This document shows positions 1,639-17,983 of a stretch of 22,172 bases of DNA, piece by piece. Each line of letters begins with the position of its first letter. The first letter of the stretch is position 1. Source of the DNA: a virus; the IMG/VR virus record IMGVR_UViG_3300021437_000568, positions 1-22,172 of that record; one strand, given 5' to 3'. Position numbers and translations under genes: made by a program. The notes under the pieces were generated by a model. That model was given only the letters and a program-made list of their open reading frames with translations, had not been told where the DNA came from and did not search any database.

Positions 1639-2270
1639 AGCGGGCATGTGCGACATGCGGCGGCTGTTTTAAGTGTAAGCCATCCGCATCTCGAAAATTC
1701 TGTACGCGTCAGTGCGCGGGGCTGGCCGCGAGAAAGCCGGGGCGGGAGTGCGCACGATGTGGTGTGCCTTTCAGGCCGCGCCGCCCTGAGAGTAAGTTCT
1801 GCTCGGTCGTGTGTGGTCTCAGGCCGCGCAAGGCGCCTGACACGTGTTTGCAGTGCGGGGCTGAGTACCGGTCACGCCGCGGCCCGGGTAGTCAAAAGTA
1901 CTGTTCTGCCCGCTGCGCTTCAGCGGCGGCGGAGCGCGGGCCCGCACTCCGGCGAGCGCGTGCGCGCACTTATCGGGCGAAAGCCTACCCGGCGCGCAAG
2001 GCGCGGTTGATGCGCCCTCTTTTCGATCACTGGCAACACGGCAGATGCGCGATTTGCAGGGGTCCGGGCACGCCCGGTCCGCCTGACGGTAAGCGTAAGC
2101 TGTGTTTAGACCACTGCCATGTTACGGGCATACCGCGTGCAGTGTTGTGCGGTCAGTGCAACACGGCCGTGGGCGCAGTGCGGGAATCGCCACGCATCGC
2201 ACGCGCGCTAGTTGAGTACGTGGTGATGTGCCGCAGTTTGATTACGGTGAAAGGACCCGACCAGCAATGA
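1635..2270 (+). CDS. Endonuclease VII-like nuclease with three zinc ribbons
   Basis: The 211-residue protein has two parts. Residues 1-94 hold three successive CxxC...CxxxC units (C5/C8/C23/C27, C39/C42/C56/C60, C71/C74/C90/C94), each resembling a small zinc ribbon. Residues about 128-195 match the recombination endonuclease VII fold: zinc cysteines C138/C141 and C172/C175, a D159-H160-x-H162 catalytic core (LCLDHCHVTG), and N176 right after the last cysteine. This is the same arrangement as T4 endonuclease VII (zinc C23/C26/C58/C61, D40/H41/H43, N62). T4 gp49 resolves branched DNA before packaging. Here the added zinc array suggests sequence-specific binding, so it may be a homing nuclease. 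It overlaps its neighbours by ATGA at both ends. Confidence 0.85.
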   Translation: MKRACATCGGCFKCKPSASRKFCTRQCAGLAARKPGRECARCGVPFRPRRPESKFCSVVCGLRPRKAPDTCLQCGAEYRSRRGPGSQKYCSARCASAAAERGPALRRARARTYRAKAYPARKARLMRPLFDHWQHGRCAICRGPGTPGPPDGKRKLCLDHCHVTGIPRAVLCGQCNTAVGAVRESPRIARALVEYVVMCRSLITVKGPDQQ

Positions 2271-2458
2271 ACCCTCAAATGAAGCAACTGACCCAGCGCA
2301 CGGACTCGCGCCCGCTCGCTGAGCGCAAGAAATCGATCACGATGCGCAAGGCGGAAATCCGCGCGCAGCTGGACGCGGTAGAGCGTGCGGAGGCGGAACT
2401 CGACATTGAGATTGAGCGCGAGGAATACGAACGGGAGCGCGCGCATGCCGCGGAGTGA
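2267..2458 (+). CDS. Small coiled-coil protein
   Basis: A 63-residue, highly charged protein starting at the ATGA overlap with the endonuclease VII-like gene. Residues about 20-60 (ITMRKAEIRAQLDAVERAEA onward) form an uninterrupted amphipathic helix rich in Glu, Arg and Ala, typical of a dimeric coiled coil. No family is recognised. It overlaps the next gene by 14 nt, which supports a translationally coupled run of small genes from the small terminase to 3247. Confidence 0.55.
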   Translation: MNPQMKQLTQRTDSRPLAERKKSITMRKAEIRAQLDAVERAEAELDIEIEREEYERERAHAAE

Positions 2459-2672
2459 GCTCGTCCTGATGCGCGTGACGGAGCTCGAGCCGGGGCAGCG
2501 CGTGCGCTTGCCGCGCACGTCCCGCACGCGCCTGCAAACCGTCGTGAGCGTGCAAGCGGGAGAGCTTGGCACAGTGCAAGTGTACACAGATCTAGGAGTT
2601 TACGTATGCAATCGGTCGGACATGGTGGACGTGGAGGAGATATCGGCGACAGACGGCGGGCGGTGGGTGTGA
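2445..2672 (+). CDS. Small beta-rich protein, SH3/KOW-like
   Basis: A 75-residue protein starting at ATG 2445 inside the end of the coiled-coil gene. It shows alternating hydrophobic strands (LVLMRVTELEPGQRVRLP, TVVSVQAGELGTVQVYTD, VYVCNRSDMVDVEEI), the look of a small barrel. Its Gln-Val turns and Asp-Gly ending recall SH3-like folds, but no family is assigned. Its last 67 nt are overlapped by the next gene if that gene begins at ATG 2606. Confidence 0.5.
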   Translation: MPRSELVLMRVTELEPGQRVRLPRTSRTRLQTVVSVQAGELGTVQVYTDLGVYVCNRSDMVDVEEISATDGGRWV

Positions 2673-3247
2673 GCGCACACGACTCCGCGCCCACGCTGCG
2701 TGCGGTGCGCGTGCCCCCGCGGCCGGAGCGGCGCAGCGAACACGCGTTGCAATGCGTGTATCCGGGGTGCGGCAAGCGCGGGCCTTTCGGCACGTGCGCT
2801 GTGACCGGATGCCCCGAGGGTTTGGACGCGCCTCTCGCGCGCCCCACGCTTCCGTCGCCCGGAGCGCAGCGCCCGTCGAGCTTGCCGCCCCCGCGCCGGG
2901 CGCCCGCGCCGCGTCGCTCCTACACCCCGCCGACGCTGCGCACCTCGGATGTGCAACGCCTCGACGTGGTCCTCTCGCGCTTGCAATTCGCGCTACGCAC
3001 CGCCGACACGTTGAACGAGTTGCGGCATTACCTCGTGGAGCTCGCCGCGGATGTCGAGTCGGTAGTGAGCGGCGACCGCGCCGCGCCGGAGCTGCGCGTC
3101 TCGGAGGTCGCGCCCGATACGTTGCCGTCGCCCCAAGCCGAGCTGGCCGCAGACGACGCCGCCCCGAGCACGCCCTACGGGACGGACATCGCGGAGGAGT
3201 TCGGACCGGGTGATTCGGAATGGTTGGTGCTGCGTGGCGCGCCCTAG
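2606..3247 (+). CDS. Unknown protein with a possible zinc knuckle
   Basis: ATG 2606 has a textbook ribosome site, AGGAG at 2594-2598, 7 nt away, and gives 213 aa. GTG 2669 forms a GTGA overlap with the stop of the previous gene and gives 192 aa. The first start implies an unusual 67-nt overlap. Residues about 49-70 contain C-x4-C-x7-C-x4-C (CVYPGCGKRGPFGTCAVTGC), a possible zinc site. A Pro/Arg-rich stretch follows, then a helical segment (QRLDVVLSRLQFALRTADTL) and an acidic tail. The function is unknown. It converges on the large terminase gene, and the two stop codons share the palindrome CTAG at 3244-3247. Confidence 0.5.
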   Translation: MQSVGHGGRGGDIGDRRRAVGVSAHDSAPTLRAVRVPPRPERRSEHALQCVYPGCGKRGPFGTCAVTGCPEGLDAPLARPTLPSPGAQRPSSLPPPRRAPAPRRSYTPPTLRTSDVQRLDVVLSRLQFALRTADTLNELRHYLVELAADVESVVSGDRAAPELRVSEVAPDTLPSPQAELAADDAAPSTPYGTDIAEEFGPGDSEWLVLRGAP

Positions 3248-4782
3248 AACCCGAGCCGCCGGCCCCCGCGGGCGGTAAGCCCCGCAGCAAGCCCCGGCGC
3301 CCCGCGTAGCGCACCGGGCGCCGACCCCGTGCGGAGGGCGGCTTGCAGCTCGCCGTGAAGCCTGGCGGCCGTGGCGGCGTCGCGCGAGTGGTCCGGCGGG
3401 GAGTCGAGGCGGAGCTCGCGGAGCTCGATCACCAAGTAGGCGAAAGCGTCCAGTCGGTTGGGCGACCGTTTCGTAACGCCCGGCACGTAGGTGGTGAGTT
3501 CCTTTTCCAGGTCCGCGAACCGGGGCGCCTTGGGATCGGGGTCCACGAGGTGAGCACGCCCCGCGTCCGTCTCCGCGGCGGGGCCGTCCGCACGCGAGCC
3601 CTTGGACTCCTGCGGGCTGTACTCGCGAATGAATAGGCACCCCGGATCGAACGCAGGCCACGGCTCCTCGCGCCCGAGGACGCGCACGCGCAGGCCGGCG
3701 GTCTCCGCACGGGACTTCAACACCTCCGCCGCTGCGTCGCCGATGCGCTTGCGCTCGACGCCGATGCGCCCGCGGCGCGGGCCGGGTATGCGTGGGTCGG
3801 CGTGCTTGATCCCGAGGTCCGCCCACTCGCGCGAGGTGTGCTTGCCCGACAGATCGGCGAACGCGTAGGCGTGCTTGTCCGTGCGCCCGCGTCCGCCCAC
3901 GCACAGACCCGTCTCGTCGGCGGTGTCGTACGTCGATGTGGCGGGGTCGATCGTCACCATGATCTGATCGAAGTCCGGCGCAGACTCGACGCGGGAGTTG
4001 TCAATCATGGCCTGCGTCCAGAGTGCGCCCGCGGACTCGCGGAAGCTCGCACCCATGAGCTCCTCCTCGCGGCGCACGCCGGCGTAGCTCACCCACTGCG
4101 AGCGTAGGTACTGCGTCGACAGACCTTGGTTGTCGAACATGGTGCCCGGAGCGATCACGTGCTGAACAGGGTCTGCGTCGTGCCACTCCTCGAGTAGCGC
4201 GCGCACCTCGTTTCGCCCCTTGGCGGTGGAGTCCCAAATCAAGCGCTCCTCGCCGACACGCGTGGCGGTGTAGAGGTTTTTGAACGCGTCGAGCCGCGAG
4301 CCCGCTTTCCAGTCGACGATCTCCGTGCACCACGATAGCGAGAAGTTACCGCCGCGGCTGCGCCCCTCGCGCTCCGGCGTGAACCCGATAGCCTCAACGC
4401 CGTTGGGCCACCGCAAGCCGAGTTTGCCTAAGGGCTCAGGGCGTTGCCAAGGTTCGGCGTACTCGATCAGCGACGCAAACTGGACCTCCGCGACGCGTGC
4501 CTCTGTTGGGGCCATGAGCGCTACGTGCGTTTCTTTCCCCGACATGACGCGCTCGTTTATGTACCGCGCGATCGGAGTCGTCTTACCGAACCCGCGCCCC
4601 CCAGTGTAGCCGCACGTTCGCCAGCGGTGCGAGGGCACGTGCTGCTCTGGACGGAGCCATAGGTCAAAACACCACGGAAGCACGGCGAGTTCCGCATCCG
4701 ACAGCGATTCGATCCACGCTTGGTCCAAGTGCGTGAGGACGTACGCGGGGGAGACAGCACCGGGCGGGAGCGTTTCATTCAT
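3244..4782 (-). CDS. Terminase large subunit (packaging ATPase and nuclease)
   Basis: A 512-residue protein that powers DNA translocation into the prohead and cuts the genome. The ATPase has a Walker A motif GGRGFGKTT at residues about 61-69, preceded by GYT. A Walker B-like strand with Asp/Glu (FSLSWCTEIVDW) follows. The C-terminal nuclease domain shows acidic residues in MVTIDPATSTYDT, IGVERKRIGDAA and NRLDAFAYLVIEL, the last being the typical third metal-binding Asp. The start at ATG 4782 forms an ATGA overlap with the portal stop, which excludes the longer upstream reading. It lies on the minus strand behind the portal, opposite to the capsid genes. Confidence 0.93.
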   Translation of the reverse strand: MNETLPPGAVSPAYVLTHLDQAWIESLSDAELAVLPWCFDLWLRPEQHVPSHRWRTCGYTGGRGFGKTTPIARYINERVMSGKETHVALMAPTEARVAEVQFASLIEYAEPWQRPEPLGKLGLRWPNGVEAIGFTPEREGRSRGGNFSLSWCTEIVDWKAGSRLDAFKNLYTATRVGEERLIWDSTAKGRNEVRALLEEWHDADPVQHVIAPGTMFDNQGLSTQYLRSQWVSYAGVRREEELMGASFRESAGALWTQAMIDNSRVESAPDFDQIMVTIDPATSTYDTADETGLCVGGRGRTDKHAYAFADLSGKHTSREWADLGIKHADPRIPGPRRGRIGVERKRIGDAAAEVLKSRAETAGLRVRVLGREEPWPAFDPGCLFIREYSPQESKGSRADGPAAETDAGRAHLVDPDPKAPRFADLEKELTTYVPGVTKRSPNRLDAFAYLVIELRELRLDSPPDHSRDAATAARLHGELQAALRTGSAPGALRGAPGLAAGLTARGGRRLGF

Positions 4783-6334: not shown

Positions 6335-7732
6335 ATGTCCTCGCTCTATTGGCTGCTTTCTCACGAGGCGCTACAACAGCGCGTGGTGCGGTCGATCCGC
6401 GAGGCGCGCACTCCGCTTACCGCCCGCGCCCCGCGCGCGGACGCGGCGCCTGCGGGCGGATTGCCCGCGCCGTTGCGCATTGAAAATGGGGTCGCGACGA
6501 TCAAGGTCGAGGGCGTATTGACGCCGGCCCCCGACTACATGGCGGAAATGTACGGCGAGGCCAACACGTCGTACACCGACTTGCAGAACTCGCTGCGCAT
6601 TGCGCTCGGGGATCCGTCGGTGCGCAAGATCGATTGGGTGATCAACTCCCCCGGTGGATCTGTGGACGGGCTTTTTACCCTGCTCGACGCGATCGAAGCC
6701 GCGCGCGAGTCCAAGGCCAAGCCCATGGTTGCGCGCGCAATCGAGGCGCAGTCTGCCGCGTACGGTATCGCTGCGGCGGTGGGCACGATCGAAGCGATGA
6801 GCCGCGTTTCTGCGATCGGGAGCGTTGGCGTCGCGACGAGCGGGTTTATTTCCGGCGGTATCTGCGGCACGGTCGTGGACCTGACGAACTCGGAGTCGCC
6901 CGACAAGCGCCCGAACCTTTCCACGCCCGAGGGGCGCGCGGTCGTCGTCTCGCACCTCGACGAAATCGCTGCGGAGTTTTACGGGACGATTGCCCGCGGC
7001 CGCGGTATCACACCCGACGCGGTGGCAAAAGGGTACGGGCGCGGCGCGAGCATGTTGGCGCAAGCGGCGCTAGATGCCGGAATGATCGACCGAATCGACG
7101 ACCCTCGAGCTCGCTCGGCGCGTGGCGCACGTACCGACTTGACGGACGCACGCACACAAGGTACCGTGCGGGCTAGCATGTCTGCAGACACGACACCCGC
7201 GCCGACGCCGGCAGAGCCTGAGAAGAAAGACGAGCCCGCGCCGGCACCCGCGGACGTGGCCCCCGCCGACGAGTCGGAGCAGGACGAGGCCGCACCGGTT
7301 GCTCCTGCGCCGGCTGCACCCGCGGCTGCGTCGGCGAGCGCGTCTCCCGCCGGCGGCATGACGCTCACCCCCGAAGAGTACGCGGAGTTCTCCGCGCTCC
7401 GAGCCGAGCGCGCTGTGCGTGCGACGGCCGAGCGCCGCGCACTCATCACCGAGCTCGTGGCGCTTGGCGCCGAACGCCCGGCGACCGCCTGGCGCGACGG
7501 TGCCCCCGTGCCGCGCCTCGCCTCCGAGCCAATCGAGGACCTGCGCGCCCGCGTGGCCATGCTTCGCACCACCGCTCCCAAGGCGGAGATTCTCCCCCCG
7601 AGCTCCGGTTCCGGCACCGGCGAGGAGGGGCTCACCGATTTTGAACGGGCCGACGCGGCCCGGATCAAGGACTCCGATGCCCGCGCGCGTTTCGTCGCGC
7701 AGCGGCTCGAGCGAAAGCAGAAGGCGCAGTAA
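6335..7732 (+). CDS. S49-type prohead protease with C-terminal scaffold domain (Mu gpI-like)
   Basis: 465 residues. Residues about 45-275 are a ClpP/SppA-fold peptidase: WVINSPGGSVDGL gives the oxyanion Gly-Gly region, Ser140 in AQSAAYGIAAAV is the likely nucleophile, and GSVGVATS and GRGITPDAVAKGYGRG are typical of phage S49 enzymes. Residues 282-465 are an Ala/Pro/Glu-rich linker followed by charged helices (LTPEEYAEFSALRAERAVRA), the look of a scaffold. Such proteases cleave the scaffold and themselves during head maturation, as lambda C with Nu3 and Mu I with Z do. A 39-bp promoter-bearing repeat lies inside the gene at the domain junction. The ATG 6335 is fixed by the promoter 9 nt upstream. 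Confidence 0.9.
   Translation: MSSLYWLLSHEALQQRVVRSIREARTPLTARAPRADAAPAGGLPAPLRIENGVATIKVEGVLTPAPDYMAEMYGEANTSYTDLQNSLRIALGDPSVRKIDWVINSPGGSVDGLFTLLDAIEAARESKAKPMVARAIEAQSAAYGIAAAVGTIEAMSRVSAIGSVGVATSGFISGGICGTVVDLTNSESPDKRPNLSTPEGRAVVVSHLDEIAAEFYGTIARGRGITPDAVAKGYGRGASMLAQAALDAGMIDRIDDPRARSARGARTDLTDARTQGTVRASMSADTTPAPTPAEPEKKDEPAPAPADVAPADESEQDEAAPVAPAPAAPAAASASASPAGGMTLTPEEYAEFSALRAERAVRATAERRALITELVALGAERPATAWRDGAPVPRLASEPIEDLRARVAMLRTTAPKAEILPPSSGSGTGEEGLTDFERADAARIKDSDARARFVAQRLERKQKAQ
7133..7171 (+). repeat. 39-bp perfect direct repeat, copy 1 (inside protease gene)
   Basis: These 39 bases are identical to 15351-15389. Both copies end 6 nt before an ATG (7178 for the nested scaffold, 15396 for the sheath). 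Here the repeat is also translated, as the linker TDLTDARTQGTVR. Identity at every synonymous position argues for selection on DNA or RNA, or for recent copying. Confidence 0.95.
7139..7167 (+). promoter_or_regulatory. Internal promoter for the nested scaffold
   Basis: TTGACG (7139-7144), exactly 17 nt and TACCGT (7162-7167) lie within the 39-bp repeat. The in-frame ATG 7178 is 10 nt beyond the -10 box. No Shine-Dalgarno precedes it, so translation from a leaderless transcript is the simplest reading. Confidence 0.65.
7178..7732 (+). CDS. Nested in-frame scaffold protein (Nu3 / Mu gpZ analogue)
   Basis: This start lies within the protease gene in the same frame and yields 184 residues, MSADTTPAPTP to the shared stop. 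The first 55 residues are acidic and Pro/Ala-rich. A helical segment follows (PEEYAEFSALRAERAVRATA), with a further predicted helix near the C-terminus (LTDFERADAARIKDSDARAR) and the Lys/Arg-rich end expected of a capsid-binding scaffold. Nested scaffolds made from the 3' part of the protease gene are known in lambda (C/Nu3) and Mu (I/Z). The promoter in the repeat 6 nt upstream supports separate production in excess over the protease. Inferred, not proven. Confidence 0.7.
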   Translation: MSADTTPAPTPAEPEKKDEPAPAPADVAPADESEQDEAAPVAPAPAAPAAASASASPAGGMTLTPEEYAEFSALRAERAVRATAERRALITELVALGAERPATAWRDGAPVPRLASEPIEDLRARVAMLRTTAPKAEILPPSSGSGTGEEGLTDFERADAARIKDSDARARFVAQRLERKQKAQ

Positions 7733-8754: not shown

Positions 8755-9789
8755 ATGGCGAAACCACTCGAGCAACTTAGTTTCGACTCGCAACGCGCGC
8801 TCGAGCAATTCAGCTCCGCGTTCCAGTCCGCTTTCGAGGCTTCCGAGCCGTCGAGCCAGTGGTCGGCGGCGTTCGGCTTGGTCGAGTCGTCGCAGGCGCT
8901 GCTCCTGACCTACCCCATGTCGATCTCCGCCGCGGGCTACGTCGAGCGCAAGGGCGACGACGCGGCGCGCGACATGTACGAGCGGTCGATCTCGATCACC
9001 CCGATCGAGTGGACCGACGGTGTTCAGGCGCAGAAGCGCAGGCTCGAGCAAAGCGACTTCGCAGTGCAGGCTTGGACGAGCGAGGCGCGGCGCATGGCAA
9101 CGGAAGCGCGCCGACACGGCAACATCCTGACGGCCCGCTTGCTGCATGCCAACGCGAACTTGCAGCTCTACAAGGACTCCACGCTCGGCGTCGACGCGGG
9201 GATCCCGCTGTTCAGCTCGAGCCACCAGGTCAACATTTTCGACACGAGCAAGGGCACGTTCAAGAACGTCCTGCTCGGCGGCGGCACGGACTTCGCCGGC
9301 AACGCGATCGACCAAGAGTTGTTCCGCGCGGTGCTGTTGCACGGCGGCACTGGGATCAAGGGCGCCAACGGTCAACTCATGGCGGTCAACTACACCGACA
9401 TGATCGTCCACCCTGCCAAGGCGCAAGAAGCCAAGGACTTCCTGCAGTCCGACTTGATGCGCGCGACGTTCCTCGAGGGTGCTACAGGTTCGACCAAGAA
9501 TACGCAGCTCACCACCAACAACCGGTACAAGGGTATCATCAACCTCGTGGTGGCCGAGGAGCTCGCGCAGGTCTCCGGTGTAGACTCGGACAAGGTCTAC
9601 TTCGTGGACCGCAACCACCCAGCGAAGCCGTGGATTCTCCAGGACGGCGGCACGCCCGAGGAGATCATGTTCGATAGCAACAGCGAATACTGCAAGAAAA
9701 CCGGCAAGGTTCGCGTCAACTACAACATGCTGATGGGTGTCACCGGCGCTTTGCCCCACGGCATTCTGCGCGTCGACCTCAGCCCGTAA
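8755..9789 (+). CDS. Major capsid protein
   Basis: 344 residues, following protease, scaffold and decoration genes in the classic order. The N-terminal third is helical (SFDSQRALEQFSSAFQSAFE) with SAAGYVERKGDDAARDMYER. The centre has SDFAVQAWTSEARRMATEAR and NILTARLLHANANLQLYKDS. The C-terminal half has VNYTDMIVHPAKAQEAKDFL, then VDRNHPAKPWILQDGG near the end, in keeping with an HK97-fold Mu gpT-like head subunit. It would assemble the icosahedral shell. AAGG at 8742-8745 lies 9 nt before the ATG. A terminator-like hairpin follows 19 nt after its stop. Confidence 0.85.
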   Translation: MAKPLEQLSFDSQRALEQFSSAFQSAFEASEPSSQWSAAFGLVESSQALLLTYPMSISAAGYVERKGDDAARDMYERSISITPIEWTDGVQAQKRRLEQSDFAVQAWTSEARRMATEARRHGNILTARLLHANANLQLYKDSTLGVDAGIPLFSSSHQVNIFDTSKGTFKNVLLGGGTDFAGNAIDQELFRAVLLHGGTGIKGANGQLMAVNYTDMIVHPAKAQEAKDFLQSDLMRATFLEGATGSTKNTQLTTNNRYKGIINLVVAEELAQVSGVDSDKVYFVDRNHPAKPWILQDGGTPEEIMFDSNSEYCKKTGKVRVNYNMLMGVTGALPHGILRVDLSP

Positions 9790-9808
9790 TCTCGCCCGCA
9801 ACACGTCC

Positions 9809-9829
9809 CCGGCGCTCCGGCGCCGGTTT
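9809..9829 (+). terminator. Rho-independent-like terminator after the capsid gene
   Basis: A perfect 7-bp stem (ccggcgc / gcgccgg) with a TCCG tetraloop at 9809-9826 is followed by TTT. The U-tract is short, so partial termination is likely. It would limit read-through from the highly expressed capsid gene into the endonuclease and neck genes. Confidence 0.5.
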
Positions 9830-9865
9830 CCCCTCGGGGCGCCCGGCGCGGGGCGGAGAGCTTTC

Positions 9866-9919
9866 ATGGCCTACTGCACCGCTTCCGATAATCAGGCGGC
9901 TCCGAGGGGAGCGACGCCC
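9866..9919 (+). repeat. Upstream copy of the connector N-terminus, fused to the endonuclease
   Basis: Codons 1-18 (MAYCTASDNQAAPRGATP) match the start of the downstream gene (xAYCNASD...RGATP) at protein level. The DNA has diverged, notably at synonymous sites. The endonuclease core begins immediately after. Confidence 0.75.
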
Positions 9920-10576
9920 ACGTTTGACGTTTATTGCCATACGTCTCCGAGCGGAAAGCGTTACGTGGGGTGGACGTCTCGGGGCTGGCGTGCGCGTTGG
10001 CGCAAACATGTCGAGAAGGCGCTAGCGGGCAGCCGTTTCCCTTTGCACTGCGCGATCCGGAAGTACGGCGCTGACGCTTTCACCCATGAGTTGATCGACA
10101 CTGTGGGCTCCGAGGCGGAAGCGAAACGGCTTGAGGTAGAGTGGATTGAGGGTTTGGGTACTGTAGCGCCCGGGGGATACAACGCGACCGCGGGCGGCGA
10201 CGGCTCTGCGGATCCGAGTGCGTATGTGCGTGAGCGGATCGGGCGCGCGCATCGCGGGAAGACTATACCCGCCAGTCAGCGGGCGCAGATTTCAGCGGCG
10301 TTGACTGGTCGTAAGCGGGGGCCGTTCTCCGCGGAGACGTGCCGGCGGATAAGCGTGGCACAGATCGGTAAGACGGTGTCGGAGGAGAGCCGGCGCCGCA
10401 TGAGTGAAGCGCAGCGGAAACGACCGCCCGCCTCGGCTGAGACGCGCGCAAGAATGTCCGCTGCGTGGACGGATGACATGCGGGCAGAGGCCGCGCGGCG
10501 CCTGCGCAAACAGCGGTTTATGCGTGCGCTCCGGGTTTCGTGGCAACGCGTGGAGGCGGACCTTGGCATACTGTAA
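9866..10576 (+). CDS. GIY-YIG homing endonuclease inserted at the 5' end of the connector gene
   Basis: 236 residues. The GIY-YIG core is VYC (22-24) ... YVG (33-35), RW at 44-45, catalytic-type Glu90 in RLEVEW, and GYNATAGGDG. Residues about 120-215 carry several NUMOD3-type DNA-binding repeats (GRKRGPFSAETCRRIS and relatives). Residues 1-18 (MAYCTASDNQAAPRGATP) are absent from the paralogue at 17354, which starts directly at MFSVYCHTSP. They instead copy the start of the downstream connector (AYCNASD...RGATP). The ribosome site GGAG at 9855-9858 is 7 nt from ATG 9866 and probably belonged to the connector. The last codons overlap the connector's TTG start. Confidence 0.9.
   Translation: MAYCTASDNQAAPRGATPTFDVYCHTSPSGKRYVGWTSRGWRARWRKHVEKALAGSRFPLHCAIRKYGADAFTHELIDTVGSEAEAKRLEVEWIEGLGTVAPGGYNATAGGDGSADPSAYVRERIGRAHRGKTIPASQRAQISAALTGRKRGPFSAETCRRISVAQIGKTVSEESRRRMSEAQRKRPPASAETRARMSAAWTDDMRAEAARRLRKQRFMRALRVSWQRVEADLGIL
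10552..10556 (+). promoter_or_regulatory. Ribosome site GGAGG setting the TTG start of the connector
   Basis: GGAGG lies within the last codons of the endonuclease and 6 nt before TTG 10563. This decides the otherwise unobvious start of the connector gene and shows that the endonuclease's 3' end supplies a translation signal to its host gene. Confidence 0.7.
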
Positions 10577-10622
10577 CGCAAGCGACCTGCATTCTCATGG
10601 GGTCGCCCGTGGTGCGACGCCC
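10563..10622 (+). repeat. Downstream copy of the connector N-terminus
   Basis: Codons for (M)AYCNASDLHSHGVARGATP repeat, with divergence, the first 18 codons of the upstream endonuclease. The endonuclease stop codon TAA at 10574-10576 is embedded in this copy in another frame. Confidence 0.75.
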
Positions 10623-11219
10623 AACCCCGGACGACCGCTCGCGTCGCTCACCTCAAGCACGTGCGTGCTGGACGCGCACGATTTCGAGACAGGCGACGCG
10701 ATCTTGCTCTCTGTTGTCGGGGACGGAGCGTTGCCGTCTCCGCTCGTTGCAGGCACTACCTACTACGCACAGCGCGAGTCAGAGCACGCGTTCAAGGTGC
10801 GAGCCACGGCGGGTGGCTCGGCCCTGACGATCGTGGACGCGGACGACACTGTGCTTGTGTCGGCGCCACTCGACCGGGACGCGGCGATCGAGCTCGCATC
10901 CCGCATGGTTGACGACATGACCCCCGGGCAGAGTGTGCCGTTCGACAACGCCGCCGTTTACCCGGACGGTGTGCCGGCGATCGTGCGCATGACGACGGCG
11001 GAGATCGCCTCCGGGTTAATCCTCACGCGCGCGGGCACGTCCTCGCGCGGCATGTCCGAGATTGTGGACGGCGCGCAGAAGCGCCTGGCGCGGTGGGCGC
11101 AGGGCCTGCCAGTGCGCGGCACCCCCGCGGCCTCGCGCACCAATAGCGCAGCCCCTGCGCCCGCTACGGCCCCGGTTTCGGACTCGCGTGGCTGGCGCCG
11201 GTTCGGGGGAATCGAATGA
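10563..11219 (+). CDS. Head-tail connector / neck protein, restarted at TTG
   Basis: 218 residues from TTG 10563, chosen because GGAGG sits 6 nt upstream and the protein then begins (M)AYCNASD, the typical look of phage head-tail connector N-termini. Residues about 25-105 form a beta-rich insert (STCVLDAHDFETGDAILLSV, GTTYYAQRESEHAFKVRATA) of the kind seen in virion proteins. A helical C-terminal part follows (AAIELASRMVDDM, IVDGAQKRLARWAQGL) and a Pro/Ala tail. The position right after the major capsid gene supports a connector role. It overlaps the endonuclease by 14 nt and the next gene by ATGA. Confidence 0.6.
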   Translation: MAYCNASDLHSHGVARGATPNPGRPLASLTSSTCVLDAHDFETGDAILLSVVGDGALPSPLVAGTTYYAQRESEHAFKVRATAGGSALTIVDADDTVLVSAPLDRDAAIELASRMVDDMTPGQSVPFDNAAVYPDGVPAIVRMTTAEIASGLILTRAGTSSRGMSEIVDGAQKRLARWAQGLPVRGTPAASRTNSAAPAPATAPVSDSRGWRRFGGIE

Positions 11220-15328: not shown

Positions 15329-15350
15329 CAGCCGGTCCGCTAACGTACGC

Positions 15351-15389
15351 ACCGACTTGACGGACGCACGCACACAAGGTACCGTGCGG
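15351..15389 (+). repeat. 39-bp perfect direct repeat, copy 2 (before the sheath gene)
   Basis: Identical over all 39 bases to 7133-7171 and placed at the same 6-nt distance from the downstream ATG. Here it is intergenic. Confidence 0.95.
15357..15385 (+). promoter_or_regulatory. Promoter for the tail sheath operon, leaderless
   Basis: TTGACG (15357-15362), 17 nt and TACCGT (15380-15385) are followed after 10 nt by the sheath ATG 15396, with no Shine-Dalgarno. It is the same element that precedes the nested scaffold, so the two abundant proteins may be co-regulated. Confidence 0.65.
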
Positions 15390-15395
15390 AACTAC

Positions 15396-17354
15396 ATGGC
15401 CACTTTTCCGCGCGCAGTGACACACCTGGAGCCCACCGCCAGTTTCCCGGGTGGGGGCGACAATCTGATCTGCCTGCTGTCGCCGTGCGCGACTTCGGAC
15501 GATATCACCCCGCGGTTTTTTGGGAGTGCGCAGGCGCTGTATGAGCAGCACGGGTACTGCGAGGGCGTCGAGTACGCGGCCCTGCACACGTCCAAGACGG
15601 GGCTTCCGGTGCTGTTCATCGGCATGCCGATCGGAACCGCGGGTTCCGTTTCGCGCTACACCAGCCACGGCAATTCCGGGTCGAGCGTCGTGACCGCCGC
15701 AGCGGGGTCGGACGGTGTGCTCGGGGAGCACGACGGGGTGGTGCGCGTTCTCGTGGGTGGCACGATCGGTACCGATCAAATCAAGCTCGAGCTCTCCCTC
15801 GACGGCGGCCGCAGCTTCAAGAACGTTCGGCTCGGAACCGCGTCGAGCTACGTGATCCCCTACGTCAACGTGACGCTGTCTTTCGCGGCGGGCACGCTCG
15901 TCGCGGGCGACACGATCGCGGAGTGGCACGGGAGCGCCCCCAAGGTCGACACCGCAGATCTTACGGCTGCGCGCAGCGCGCTCGCGGCGGGCCTGACTTT
16001 CTTCCGGTCGATGCTGCTCACCGGCGACTTGCCGAACGACACCGCCGCGTCGGCGTTCAATACCGAGCTTGAGGCGTACACGACCGAAAACGAGCGCTTC
16101 ATCTACGGCCGCGCCAGCGTGTATGACCGCAACCCGCAGGCGAGTCTGTCGCACTCCTATGCGCGCCTCACGGGCTCGCCCGCGCTCACGTTCGCGGAGG
16201 TTGGCGGCACCGGCGACACGATTACCCGTTCCGCCGGCTCGTACCTGACGGACGGCTTCCGCGACGGCGACTACATCACCGTGACCGGGGCCGTGGCGAG
16301 CGCGGGCGTCAACAATGTTTCGGGTGCGGTGGCGACCGTCGCCGGTTCGGTTCTGACCATGGGCTCGACGGACCTCGCCGCCGAAGTCCTGTCCTCGGGC
16401 GGCTTGATCGTCGGCTCTCCGGCGCTCACGTTCTCCGCCTCGGGCCACACAATCACCCGCAGCCGCGGCTCGTACCTTGCCGACGGATTCCGGGTCGGCG
16501 ACTCGGTGACCGTCACCGGCACCGCGAGCAACAACGTCACCAAGACGATCACGGCGTTGACGGCTACGGTCATGACATTTGCGGCGGGCCTTGCCGACGA
16601 GACGCTCGGGAGCGCCTCCGTCACGATCGTGAGCGGGCAGAGCAAAGCGGCGTGGATGGCGGAGATCGACGCGGAGTTCGCGCCAGTTGACGGTGCCCCG
16701 CGCATCGACTTGAGCGCTGGCCGCGGCGCCGTCGCATCGCCGTTCTCCGGGTGGTTCTTCCGGCGCCCCGCAGGGTGGTTCGCGTCGTTGCGCGAGTATC
16801 AGCATGACCTGCACGTCGCGACGTTCCGCAAGGACTTGGGCCCTGTGGGCGCTGACCTGTACGACGGCAACGACGTCCTCGTCGAGTGGGACGACCGCGT
16901 CGACGGCGGTGCCGGCTCGGAAGCGAACTTCACAACCCTGCGGTCGTGGAGCAACGGCCCGCGCGGTGCGTTCATCACGCAGAGCCTGACGCGCGCCGGC
17001 GACGGCCAGATCACGCAGCCGACGCACAACATGGCGGTGATCAACGCGGGTTGCACCGCCGTCCAGTTGGCGACGGAGAACGTCGTGGGCCGCACGCTGC
17101 AGCTCAACTCGGACGGCACTGCGACGAGCGACGCCCTGGCGGTGATCGCCGCAGAGGTGAACGCGATCGTGGAGCTGACTTTGCTGGCCAGCCGCGGCGA
17201 GGGCCCCCGCGCCTCGTCCGCCCGGTGGACCCCCTCGCCGGACGACATTTACTCAGTACCTGAACCTACGATGCACGGCACGCTGGAGATTGAGTTGCAG
17301 GGTACGGTCCACTCGGTAGACACCGCGGTGCGCGTGCAGTCGAACGGTCAGTGA
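15396..17354 (+). CDS. Tail sheath protein with duplicated insertion domain
   Basis: 652 residues from ATG 15396, fixed by the promoter repeat. An in-frame TTG at 15300 would only translate the promoter. The N-terminal part (FPRAVTHLEPTASFPGGGDN, SLDGGRSFKNVRLG) and the C-terminal part (FRKDLGPVGADLYDGNDVLV, GQITQPTHNMAVINAGCTAV, YSVPEPTMHGTLEIELQGTV) match phage contractile sheath proteins. Residues 261-414 hold two tandem copies of a beta domain starting SPALTF, inserted in the middle. The sheath contracts to drive the tube through the envelope. It ends overlapping the next start (TGATG), with the tube gene two genes down. Confidence 0.85.
   Translation: MATFPRAVTHLEPTASFPGGGDNLICLLSPCATSDDITPRFFGSAQALYEQHGYCEGVEYAALHTSKTGLPVLFIGMPIGTAGSVSRYTSHGNSGSSVVTAAAGSDGVLGEHDGVVRVLVGGTIGTDQIKLELSLDGGRSFKNVRLGTASSYVIPYVNVTLSFAAGTLVAGDTIAEWHGSAPKVDTADLTAARSALAAGLTFFRSMLLTGDLPNDTAASAFNTELEAYTTENERFIYGRASVYDRNPQASLSHSYARLTGSPALTFAEVGGTGDTITRSAGSYLTDGFRDGDYITVTGAVASAGVNNVSGAVATVAGSVLTMGSTDLAAEVLSSGGLIVGSPALTFSASGHTITRSRGSYLADGFRVGDSVTVTGTASNNVTKTITALTATVMTFAAGLADETLGSASVTIVSGQSKAAWMAEIDAEFAPVDGAPRIDLSAGRGAVASPFSGWFFRRPAGWFASLREYQHDLHVATFRKDLGPVGADLYDGNDVLVEWDDRVDGGAGSEANFTTLRSWSNGPRGAFITQSLTRAGDGQITQPTHNMAVINAGCTAVQLATENVVGRTLQLNSDGTATSDALAVIAAEVNAIVELTLLASRGEGPRASSARWTPSPDDIYSVPEPTMHGTLEIELQGTVHSVDTAVRVQSNGQ
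16176..16637 (+). repeat. Tandem protein-domain repeat inside the sheath gene
   Basis: Copy 1 at 16176-16415 (80 aa) and copy 2 at 16416-16637 (74 aa) share SPALTF, TITRS-x-GSYL-x-DGFR-x-GD, TVTG and a matching end (LIVG / TIVSG). This is an internal duplication of a small beta domain, probably exposed on the sheath surface. Confidence 0.85.
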
Positions 17355-17983
17355 TGTTTTCCGTCTATTGCCACACCAGCCCAAGCGGTAAACGCTACGT
17401 CGGATATACCGGCGGTAGCGTTCGCCAGCGCTGGCTTGAACATCAGCAGGAAGCGTGTGGTGGTAGCGACCGCCTGGTGTGCCGCGCTATTCGCAAATAC
17501 GGCGCGGACAGCTTTCGCACTGAAGTGTTGGCGCTATGCGACACCGAGGCGGGCGCGCGCAAAACAGAGCAACAATGGATCGCGCAGCGGGCATCCAAAG
17601 CTCCCGCTGGCTACAATGCTACCGACGGGGGAGACGGTCGTCGTGGGTTCCGTACCAGCGATGCGACTAAGCAGAAAATCAGCGCTGCAAAACGTGGGGC
17701 CCCCGGGCGATTCTTGACCCCGGAGTCCCGCGCTAAAATATCCGCGTCGTGGTCCGCAGAGCGCCGAGCGTCCCTTTCCGACCGCATGCGAGGCAACACT
17801 TTCGGCGTTGGCAAACCTGCGTCAGACAAGCAGCGTGACGCCGCCAGTAAGACGTGGCGTGGCGTAAAGCGTGGTCCGTTTACGGCAGAACACCGCGCCG
17901 CGTTGAGCGTCGCTCGCAGAGAGCGCGCGGCAAGAGACATGATCGTCAGCACTGCCCATCACACCGAGTCCTTGGGCAACTAA
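17354..17983 (+). CDS. GIY-YIG homing endonuclease between sheath and tube
   Basis: 209 residues from ATG 17354, which overlaps the sheath stop by one base (TGATG). The GIY-YIG core is VYC (4-6), YVG (15-17), RW (26-27), Glu72 in KTEQQW and GYNATDGGDG. NUMOD3-like repeats follow (ATKQKISAAKRGAPGRFLT, PESRAKISASW). It is a clear paralogue of the enzyme at 9866, sharing HTSPSGKRYVG, AIRKYGAD and GYNAT. The DNA looks less GC-biased than its neighbours, as expected for a mobile gene. It splits the usual sheath-tube gene pair without harming either protein. Confidence 0.92.
   Translation: MFSVYCHTSPSGKRYVGYTGGSVRQRWLEHQQEACGGSDRLVCRAIRKYGADSFRTEVLALCDTEAGARKTEQQWIAQRASKAPAGYNATDGGDGRRGFRTSDATKQKISAAKRGAPGRFLTPESRAKISASWSAERRASLSDRMRGNTFGVGKPASDKQRDAASKTWRGVKRGPFTAEHRAALSVARRERAARDMIVSTAHHTESLGN

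Follow-up and report, generated by a model that had tools for sequence, protein, structure and literature searches.

Mobile ORFs (mORFs) of fungal mitochondria bring a replacement C-terminus to the gene that they occupy, as found for atp6, atp9, cox2 and nad3 of Glomus, the first case having been atp6 of Allomyces (PMC3630166). At the other end of the gene, the mitochondria of Tremella contain 'introns with N-terminal duplication' of host genes (PMC7315562). Intron-less interruptions of phage genes by homing endonucleases are described as split genes (PMC2988022; PMC10448857), and the genes in pieces so created include Aeh1 nrdA with mobE, T4 gene 60 with mobA, and gene 43 of Aeromonas phage 25 with seg43 (PMC2988022). 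A phage element that replaces the end of a gene was not found in the open-licence literature searched.

The locus considered here lies in an IMG/VR virus record of 22,172 nt that carries tailed-phage head and tail genes and was analysed over its whole length (the window; Table 1). A spacer of 76 nt separates the major capsid gene (8755-9789) from the ATG, at 9866, of a homing endonuclease gene (HEN1), and no promoter or intrinsic terminator was predicted in 9600-10800. Elsewhere in the window, a 46-nt repeat (7126-7171 and 15344-15389, 96% identical) with TTGACG in a promoter-like layout is found within the protease ORF, directly 5' of an internal ATG of a possible nested scaffold gene, and again directly 5' of the ATG (about 15393) of a large tail gene; a late promoter present twice is the probable explanation. 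An HNH-like endonuclease gene and an endonuclease VII family gene (2-691 and 1635-2270) lie 5' of the structural genes, and the second of them is also low in GC3 (0.665).

Table 1. Features of the HEN1 locus and of related genes in the window.
Feature	Coordinates	Strand	Basis
Mu gpT-like major capsid protein, encoded 5' of the insertion	8755..9789	+	Pfam PF10124 E=2.3e-6; PHROG 371 E=1.1e-7
Shine-Dalgarno (SD) GGAG, 7 nt 5' of the HEN1 ATG; taken as the connector's original ribosome site	9855..9858	+	Sequence; SD-start spacing equal to that of copy 2 (DNA alignment)
Copy 1: leader of HEN1 (18 codons, MAYCTASDNQAAPRGATP), putatively the displaced N-terminus of the connector	9866..9919	+	Match to copy 2 far above background; MAYCTAxD at connector starts
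Left 10-nt direct repeat GCGACGCCCA at the junction	9911..9920	+	Two sites in the whole window
HEN1 body: GIY-YIG catalytic domain and NUMOD3	9920..10576	+	PHROG 314 E=3.1e-26; NUMOD3 above cut-off; I-TevI alignment
SD GGAG of copy 2, within the HEN1 coding sequence, 7 nt 5' of the TTG	10552..10555	+	Sequence
Copy 2: putative substitute connector N-terminus MAYCNASDLHSHGVARGATPN, TTG start, 14-nt overlap with the HEN1 stop	10563..10625	+	Sequence; GC3
Putative head-tail connector (gp36/Ad1-like, beta-domain insert), invaded gene	10563..11219	+	Position behind the capsid gene; motif at the N-terminus; weak gp36 profile match
Right 10-nt direct repeat GCGACGCCCA	10614..10623	+	Two sites in the whole window
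HEN2: leaderless GIY-YIG paralogue of HEN1, of the usual free-standing form	17354..17983	+	Pfam GIY-YIG E=3e-7; 42% identical to HEN1

HEN1 is a GIY-YIG/NUMOD3 endonuclease ORF (9866-10576) with a GGAG-N7-ATG start. The Pfam GIY-YIG model gives it 17.4 bits, under the 22.6-bit cut-off; its membership of the family is indicated by retention of the invariant R44, E90 and N106 and by alignment with I-TevI (1ln0/1mk0). Judged by its sequence, HEN1 is a GIY-YIG homing endonuclease of the phage Seg/I-TevI type with intact catalytic residues, and would presumably be an active, site-specific cleaving enzyme. By TIGR01453 it is near group I intron endonucleases, but below the cut-off. The paralogous HEN2 starts right at the catalytic domain, its ATG overlapping the stop of the preceding gene as TGATG. 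Codon 19 of HEN1 (ACG) aligns with this ATG (TFDVYCH in HEN1, MFSVYCH in HEN2); the ancestral HEN1 start codon has thus been lost, and HEN1 appears to have been fused at that position; 21 residues precede the catalytic-domain VY motif in HEN1, versus 2-8 in most relatives.

Over its initial 18 codons (MAYCTASDNQAAPRGATP), HEN1 matches the initial 20 codons of the downstream putative connector (MAYCNASDLHSHGVARGATP). Aligned with its own downstream region, the HEN1 leader reaches a best local score of 56 (51 if bounded by the ATG), whereas 1329 mismatched pairs, in which leaders of related endonucleases were set against the downstream regions of other endonucleases, have a mean of 18.4, a standard deviation of 4.0 and a maximum of 36. 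Such a match between leader and next gene is unique to HEN1 among 76 distinct related phage endonucleases, none of the others exceeding 33. High scores of two loci in the survey (L041 and L068) were rejected as low-complexity, GC-rich matches. HEN1 stands out less by an ungapped, start-anchored score (34, exceeded by 2 of 4028 null pairs), the reason being a 2-codon indel between the copies; the middle is also rewritten (DNQAAP versus DLHSHGVA), and both RGATP and the SD spacing are common to the two copies. An earlier note on this DNA, made from the letters alone, had correctly read the coordinates and sequences of HEN1, the TTG start of the connector, the shared N-termini, the position of the HEN1 stop TAA (10574-10576) within the connector ORF, which creates an overlap of 14 nt, and the start of HEN2, at 17354, at the catalytic domain. 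The 18-residue match that it described is real, with a score well beyond the mismatched pairs, and survives as homology, though not as an unbroken run, given the indel and the altered middle.

The gene behind HEN1 encodes 218 residues from a GGAG-N7-TTG start. It has no significant match in Pfam, PHROG or NCBIfam, and an AlphaFold model computed without an alignment showed no confident fold (mean pLDDT 36). Against a Mu gp36 profile of our own the protein matched weakly, in two colinear parts (E=0.14-0.47 among 503 sequences), and this match, the gene order and the N-terminal motif together suggest a putative head-tail connector. Residues 24-102 (about 10632-10868) are a beta-rich insert of TTYYA type, with rhizobial phage tail proteins as nearest matches. 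The degenerate pattern MAYCTAxD followed by a hydrophobic residue matched 16 stretches in IMG/VR, every one of them at the start of a short protein (113-221 residues), and four of the six such proteins compared with Pfam are Mu gp36 proteins. MAYCTAxD is therefore a widespread connector start and not an endonuclease feature, and the HEN1 leader is a connector N-terminus, probably a displaced one. The earlier note had named as a threat to its reading a generic motif, shared by unrelated connectors and always carried by the enzyme; the first eight residues are indeed generic for connectors, but the endonucleases lack them. In all nine comparison connectors (eight gp36 homologues and Mx4), none of them picked for this position, the conserved D is followed by L, M or F; copy 2 has L there and continues as DLHSHGV, much like DLYSLGV in Mx4, and copy 1 has N and two codons fewer. 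On this comparison copy 2, attached to the connector body, looks functional, and copy 1, in the HEN1 leader, looks relaxed.

The 10-nt repeat GCGACGCCCA occurs just twice in the window, at the two homologous junctions, for both of which a single contig is the sole source. Joining the sequence at this repeat, with one repeat and the intervening DNA removed, produces a single in-frame ORF beginning MAYCTASDNQAAPRGATPNPGRPLAS, which is the predicted uninterrupted allele. Over 12 aligned codons the copies differ by seven synonymous changes and one amino-acid change, whereas neutral simulations with an equal number of differences average 6.2 amino-acid changes, with none of 20,000 at one or fewer, in a test biased by the prior alignment of codons by amino-acid identity. 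Its direction is clear despite this bias, and by this measure the copies diverged as working connector starts. Since synonymous sites are saturated and amino acids kept, the copies would not be a recent local duplication. Away from the junction, 7 of 8 codons are recoded, a mild excess over independent draws from codon usage (P 0.01-0.05), and over all codons 7 of 11 amounts to mere saturation (P 0.49). Synonymous sites are heavily diverged, as noted earlier, but the excess appears only when junction codons are set aside; recoding as an escape from cleavage is possible on that basis, and the idea, raised earlier, that synonymous divergence guards against self-cleavage is no more than suggestive.

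Base composition also changes along the connector. Structural genes have a GC3 of 0.80-0.875 and endonuclease genes one of 0.65-0.71; within the connector GC3 is 0.62 over codons 1-21, 0.77 over codons 22-60 and 0.83 from codon 61 to the end, a shift that rests on 21-60 codons. The endonuclease-like GC3 of the connector start fits a start that arrived with the endonuclease. A contig from another assembly (L002), 99.98% identical, has its edge (its own position 1) at window position 10741, in connector codon 60 and 165 nt past HEN1, close to where GC3 rises to the phage average; this edge could reflect allelic variation or the edge of a co-conversion tract.

A mirror case was found when the endonuclease survey was repeated with stop-codon anchoring against a null of 4028 pairs. 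In L066 (IMGVR_UViG_3300037455_000250, 1919-3725), a related GIY-YIG endonuclease gene (2995-3669) lies 3' of a clamp-loader gene, placed 11 codons before the clamp-loader stop. The clamp-loader gene ends SRLEAWCITGE*, SRIEAWCIAKE* follows directly 3' of the endonuclease stop. Their stop-anchored score, 47, lies above that of every null pair (highest, 32). In the Streptococcus phages Dp-1 and MS1, the uninterrupted clamp-loader gene abuts the next gene, whose ribosome site is within the last clamp-loader codons (AGCAAGGAGGAGTGACATGATTGGACAG in Dp-1). The displaced copy in L066 retains the ribosome site of the next gene (GCAAAGGAGTAACTATGATTGGACA), and the attached copy (ATAACTGGTGAATAAG) lacks it. 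As the displaced end has a 3' context of the Dp-1/MS1 type, the end severed by the endonuclease would be the native one. The two L066 copies share eight codons with the same amino acid, all re-spelled but that for Trp, which has no synonym. L066 supports the direction proposed for the window case, as an independent, C-terminal mirror version of it. By analogy, the upstream copy in the window, with its normal spacer and ATG, would be the native connector start and copy 2 the substitute. The earlier note had the element capture the native ribosome site and N-terminus: the leader is indeed consistent with a connector N-terminus with its ribosome site, while its native status derives from this analogy; the second N-terminus, with its own SD and TTG, proved a well-formed substitute.

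In a possible third instance, L033 (Eggerthella phage LE2-3, 1950-2864), the upstream gene ends MERRWLKR* and the endonuclease itself ends AERRWNKR*; the C-terminal match ERRW-KR is borderline (33, against a null maximum of 32), relatives are lacking, and a C-terminal duplication in which the endonuclease reads into the displaced native end is possible from the sequence. In two further loci (L074, 1656-3403; L086, 1890-4544) a GIY-YIG endonuclease splits the clamp-loader gene into two ORFs, both around residue 175, and no Rfam intron was found in these split genes. Thus a single gene family, split in L074 and L086 and end-replaced in L066, shows both solutions. The N-terminal clamp-loader piece of L086 (1890-2999) has an apparent small intein at the Walker A motif (GTGKA...THN-TTTAR).

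The best explanation for the window, which we consider probable, is that HEN1 and the substitute start form a gene-start-replacing homing element in the connector gene. Such an intron-less element would have inserted after connector codon 18, severing the ribosome site, the ATG and the 18 codons at the front of the old gene from its body; the severed start would have been joined in frame to HEN1 at the latter's former start codon, and would now initiate HEN1. Behind HEN1, a replacement ribosome site, a TTG and some 20 codons of diverged connector N-terminus would have been joined to the old body. Its spread would depend on cleavage, around the junction, of connector genes that are still uninterrupted; an occupied allele, with its re-spelled start, would be poorly cut by HEN1. 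The arrangement is that of a mORF, with the endonuclease ORF flanked by homologous N-terminal copies at 9866 and 10563, and not that of a gene in pieces, as the downstream ORF itself begins with a full N-terminus of connector type. An uninterrupted relative of the connector, proposed earlier for comparison with both N-terminal copies, was not found among viral contigs, genome contigs, phages and plasmids with the connector query and a degenerate DNA pattern, which retrieved only the near-identical L002; the direction of events, that is, which copy is native, is therefore inferred. Cutting at the connector site, enzyme activity and the function of the connector are predictions. Capsid and portal queries in viral contigs and a protease query in genome contigs gave no matches, and in phages the portal retrieved only Mx4 (24%) and the protease many remote head proteases.

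A different history would have HEN1 as a free-standing endonuclease gene between capsid and connector, to which illegitimate, micro-homology-driven repair joined a foreign or duplicated connector start; copy 2 would then be native, copy 1 a newcomer that gave the endonuclease a better start, and a dedicated replacement module would not exist. Intergenic free-standing endonucleases are indeed the common phage form (PMC2988022, PMC10448857), the 10-nt junction repeat is compatible with micro-homology joining, and copy 2 agrees well with the connector family pattern. However, the normal post-capsid intergenic leader and the ATG belong to copy 1, while copy 2 has the TTG, an endonuclease-like GC3 and an SD within the endonuclease gene; furthermore, the native neighbour signals in L066 are on the displaced end and not on the attached one. 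We regard this history as rather unlikely. Local tandem duplication of the connector start in this genome, followed by endonuclease insertion and drift, would explain the equal spacing of SD and start in both copies, but is hard to reconcile with saturated synonymous sites alongside amino acids kept in both, and a useless leader would not persist so long; we judge it improbable.

Splicing is a very improbable alternative, whether HEN1 resides in a degenerate intron or copy 1 is spliced to the connector body with copy 2 incidental. The resemblance of HEN1 to group I intron endonucleases, below the TIGR01453 cut-off, and the common reading frame of copy 1 and the connector body would suit it; yet no Rfam match to an intron RNA was obtained in 9700-10800 even at E<=1, or window-wide at the gathering score, and a protein-like second start with an SD would be purposeless in an intron. 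Chance, convergence or faulty assembly as the source of the shared segment is scarcely credible: MAYCTAxD is generic among connectors, and the near-identical contig ends 165 nt past the endonuclease gene, but the generic motif is a connector and not an endonuclease feature, RGATP and the SD spacing match as well, and an assembler would not be misled by a repeat of just 10 nt.

Few copies of a connector are needed per virion, and weak re-initiation may therefore suffice for the gene behind HEN1. No other start in the frame of the TTG at 10563 is preceded by a good SD, and the RNA surrounding this TTG is less folded than all of 200 shuffled sequences (z=+2.24). The replacement ribosome site and TTG at the end of HEN1 suggest that the connector would be made by coupled re-initiation. 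For the T4 homing endonucleases, stop/start overlaps of this kind have been interpreted as translational coupling (PMC2988022), and by analogy translation of HEN1 and the connector would be coupled.

On whether intron-less homing elements with a replacement end form a class in phages we are evenly divided, the two forms, 5'-end replacers (the window) and 3'-end replacers (L066), resting on one solid case each. In such elements the replacement would be synonymously re-spelled over about the length of a cleavage site, so that the occupied allele is immune and the protein is kept. If true, homing endonucleases would have one more means of inhabiting a needed phage gene cheaply, in addition to introns, inteins, intergenic positions and split genes. 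The element would be hard to lose, because simple deletion leaves a wrong or degenerate gene end or no start signal. Furthermore, it would account for patchwork gene ends in phages, and predicts foreign gene starts or ends next to endonuclease genes, which would mislead annotation and phylogeny. With 5' and 3' forms in one endonuclease family, the fungal mitochondrial case would become testable in bacteria.

The earlier note had likened the locus to gene-end replacement in fungal atp6 and knew of no comparable phage class; the C-terminal trick does have a phage mirror, in L066, and the N-terminal form is not entirely without precedent, having one in Tremella (PMC7315562). As in fungal mORFs (PMC3630166), an unspliced homing endonuclease ORF in an essential gene would supply a replacement end and displace the native one, and the two ends differ chiefly at synonymous sites. 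Unlike these mORFs, which replace the 3' end in mitochondria, the element in the window would replace the 5' end, with the endonuclease taking the native ribosome site and a new ribosome site and TTG being supplied; the L066 case is the direct phage analogue of the fungal C-terminal form. The Tremella elements likewise carry a duplicate of the N-terminal part of the host gene that replaces the corresponding host part, but they are introns, some spliced, some retained in cDNA and others remaining 3' of the gene, and they reside in a eukaryotic organelle without capture of a ribosome site. With phage genes in pieces the window shares the breaking of an essential phage gene by a free-standing endonuclease without an intron; those genes, however, give two polypeptides, whereas the product predicted here is whole, with one end replaced. 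Compared to the T4 Seg endonucleases (segA-segG; PMC2988022), HEN1 has the same combination of GIY-YIG domain and NUMOD-type tail and an overlap with a neighbouring ORF that suggests translational coupling, but the seg genes are intergenic and have a short N-terminus of their own, and none has been described with the N-terminus of its target gene.
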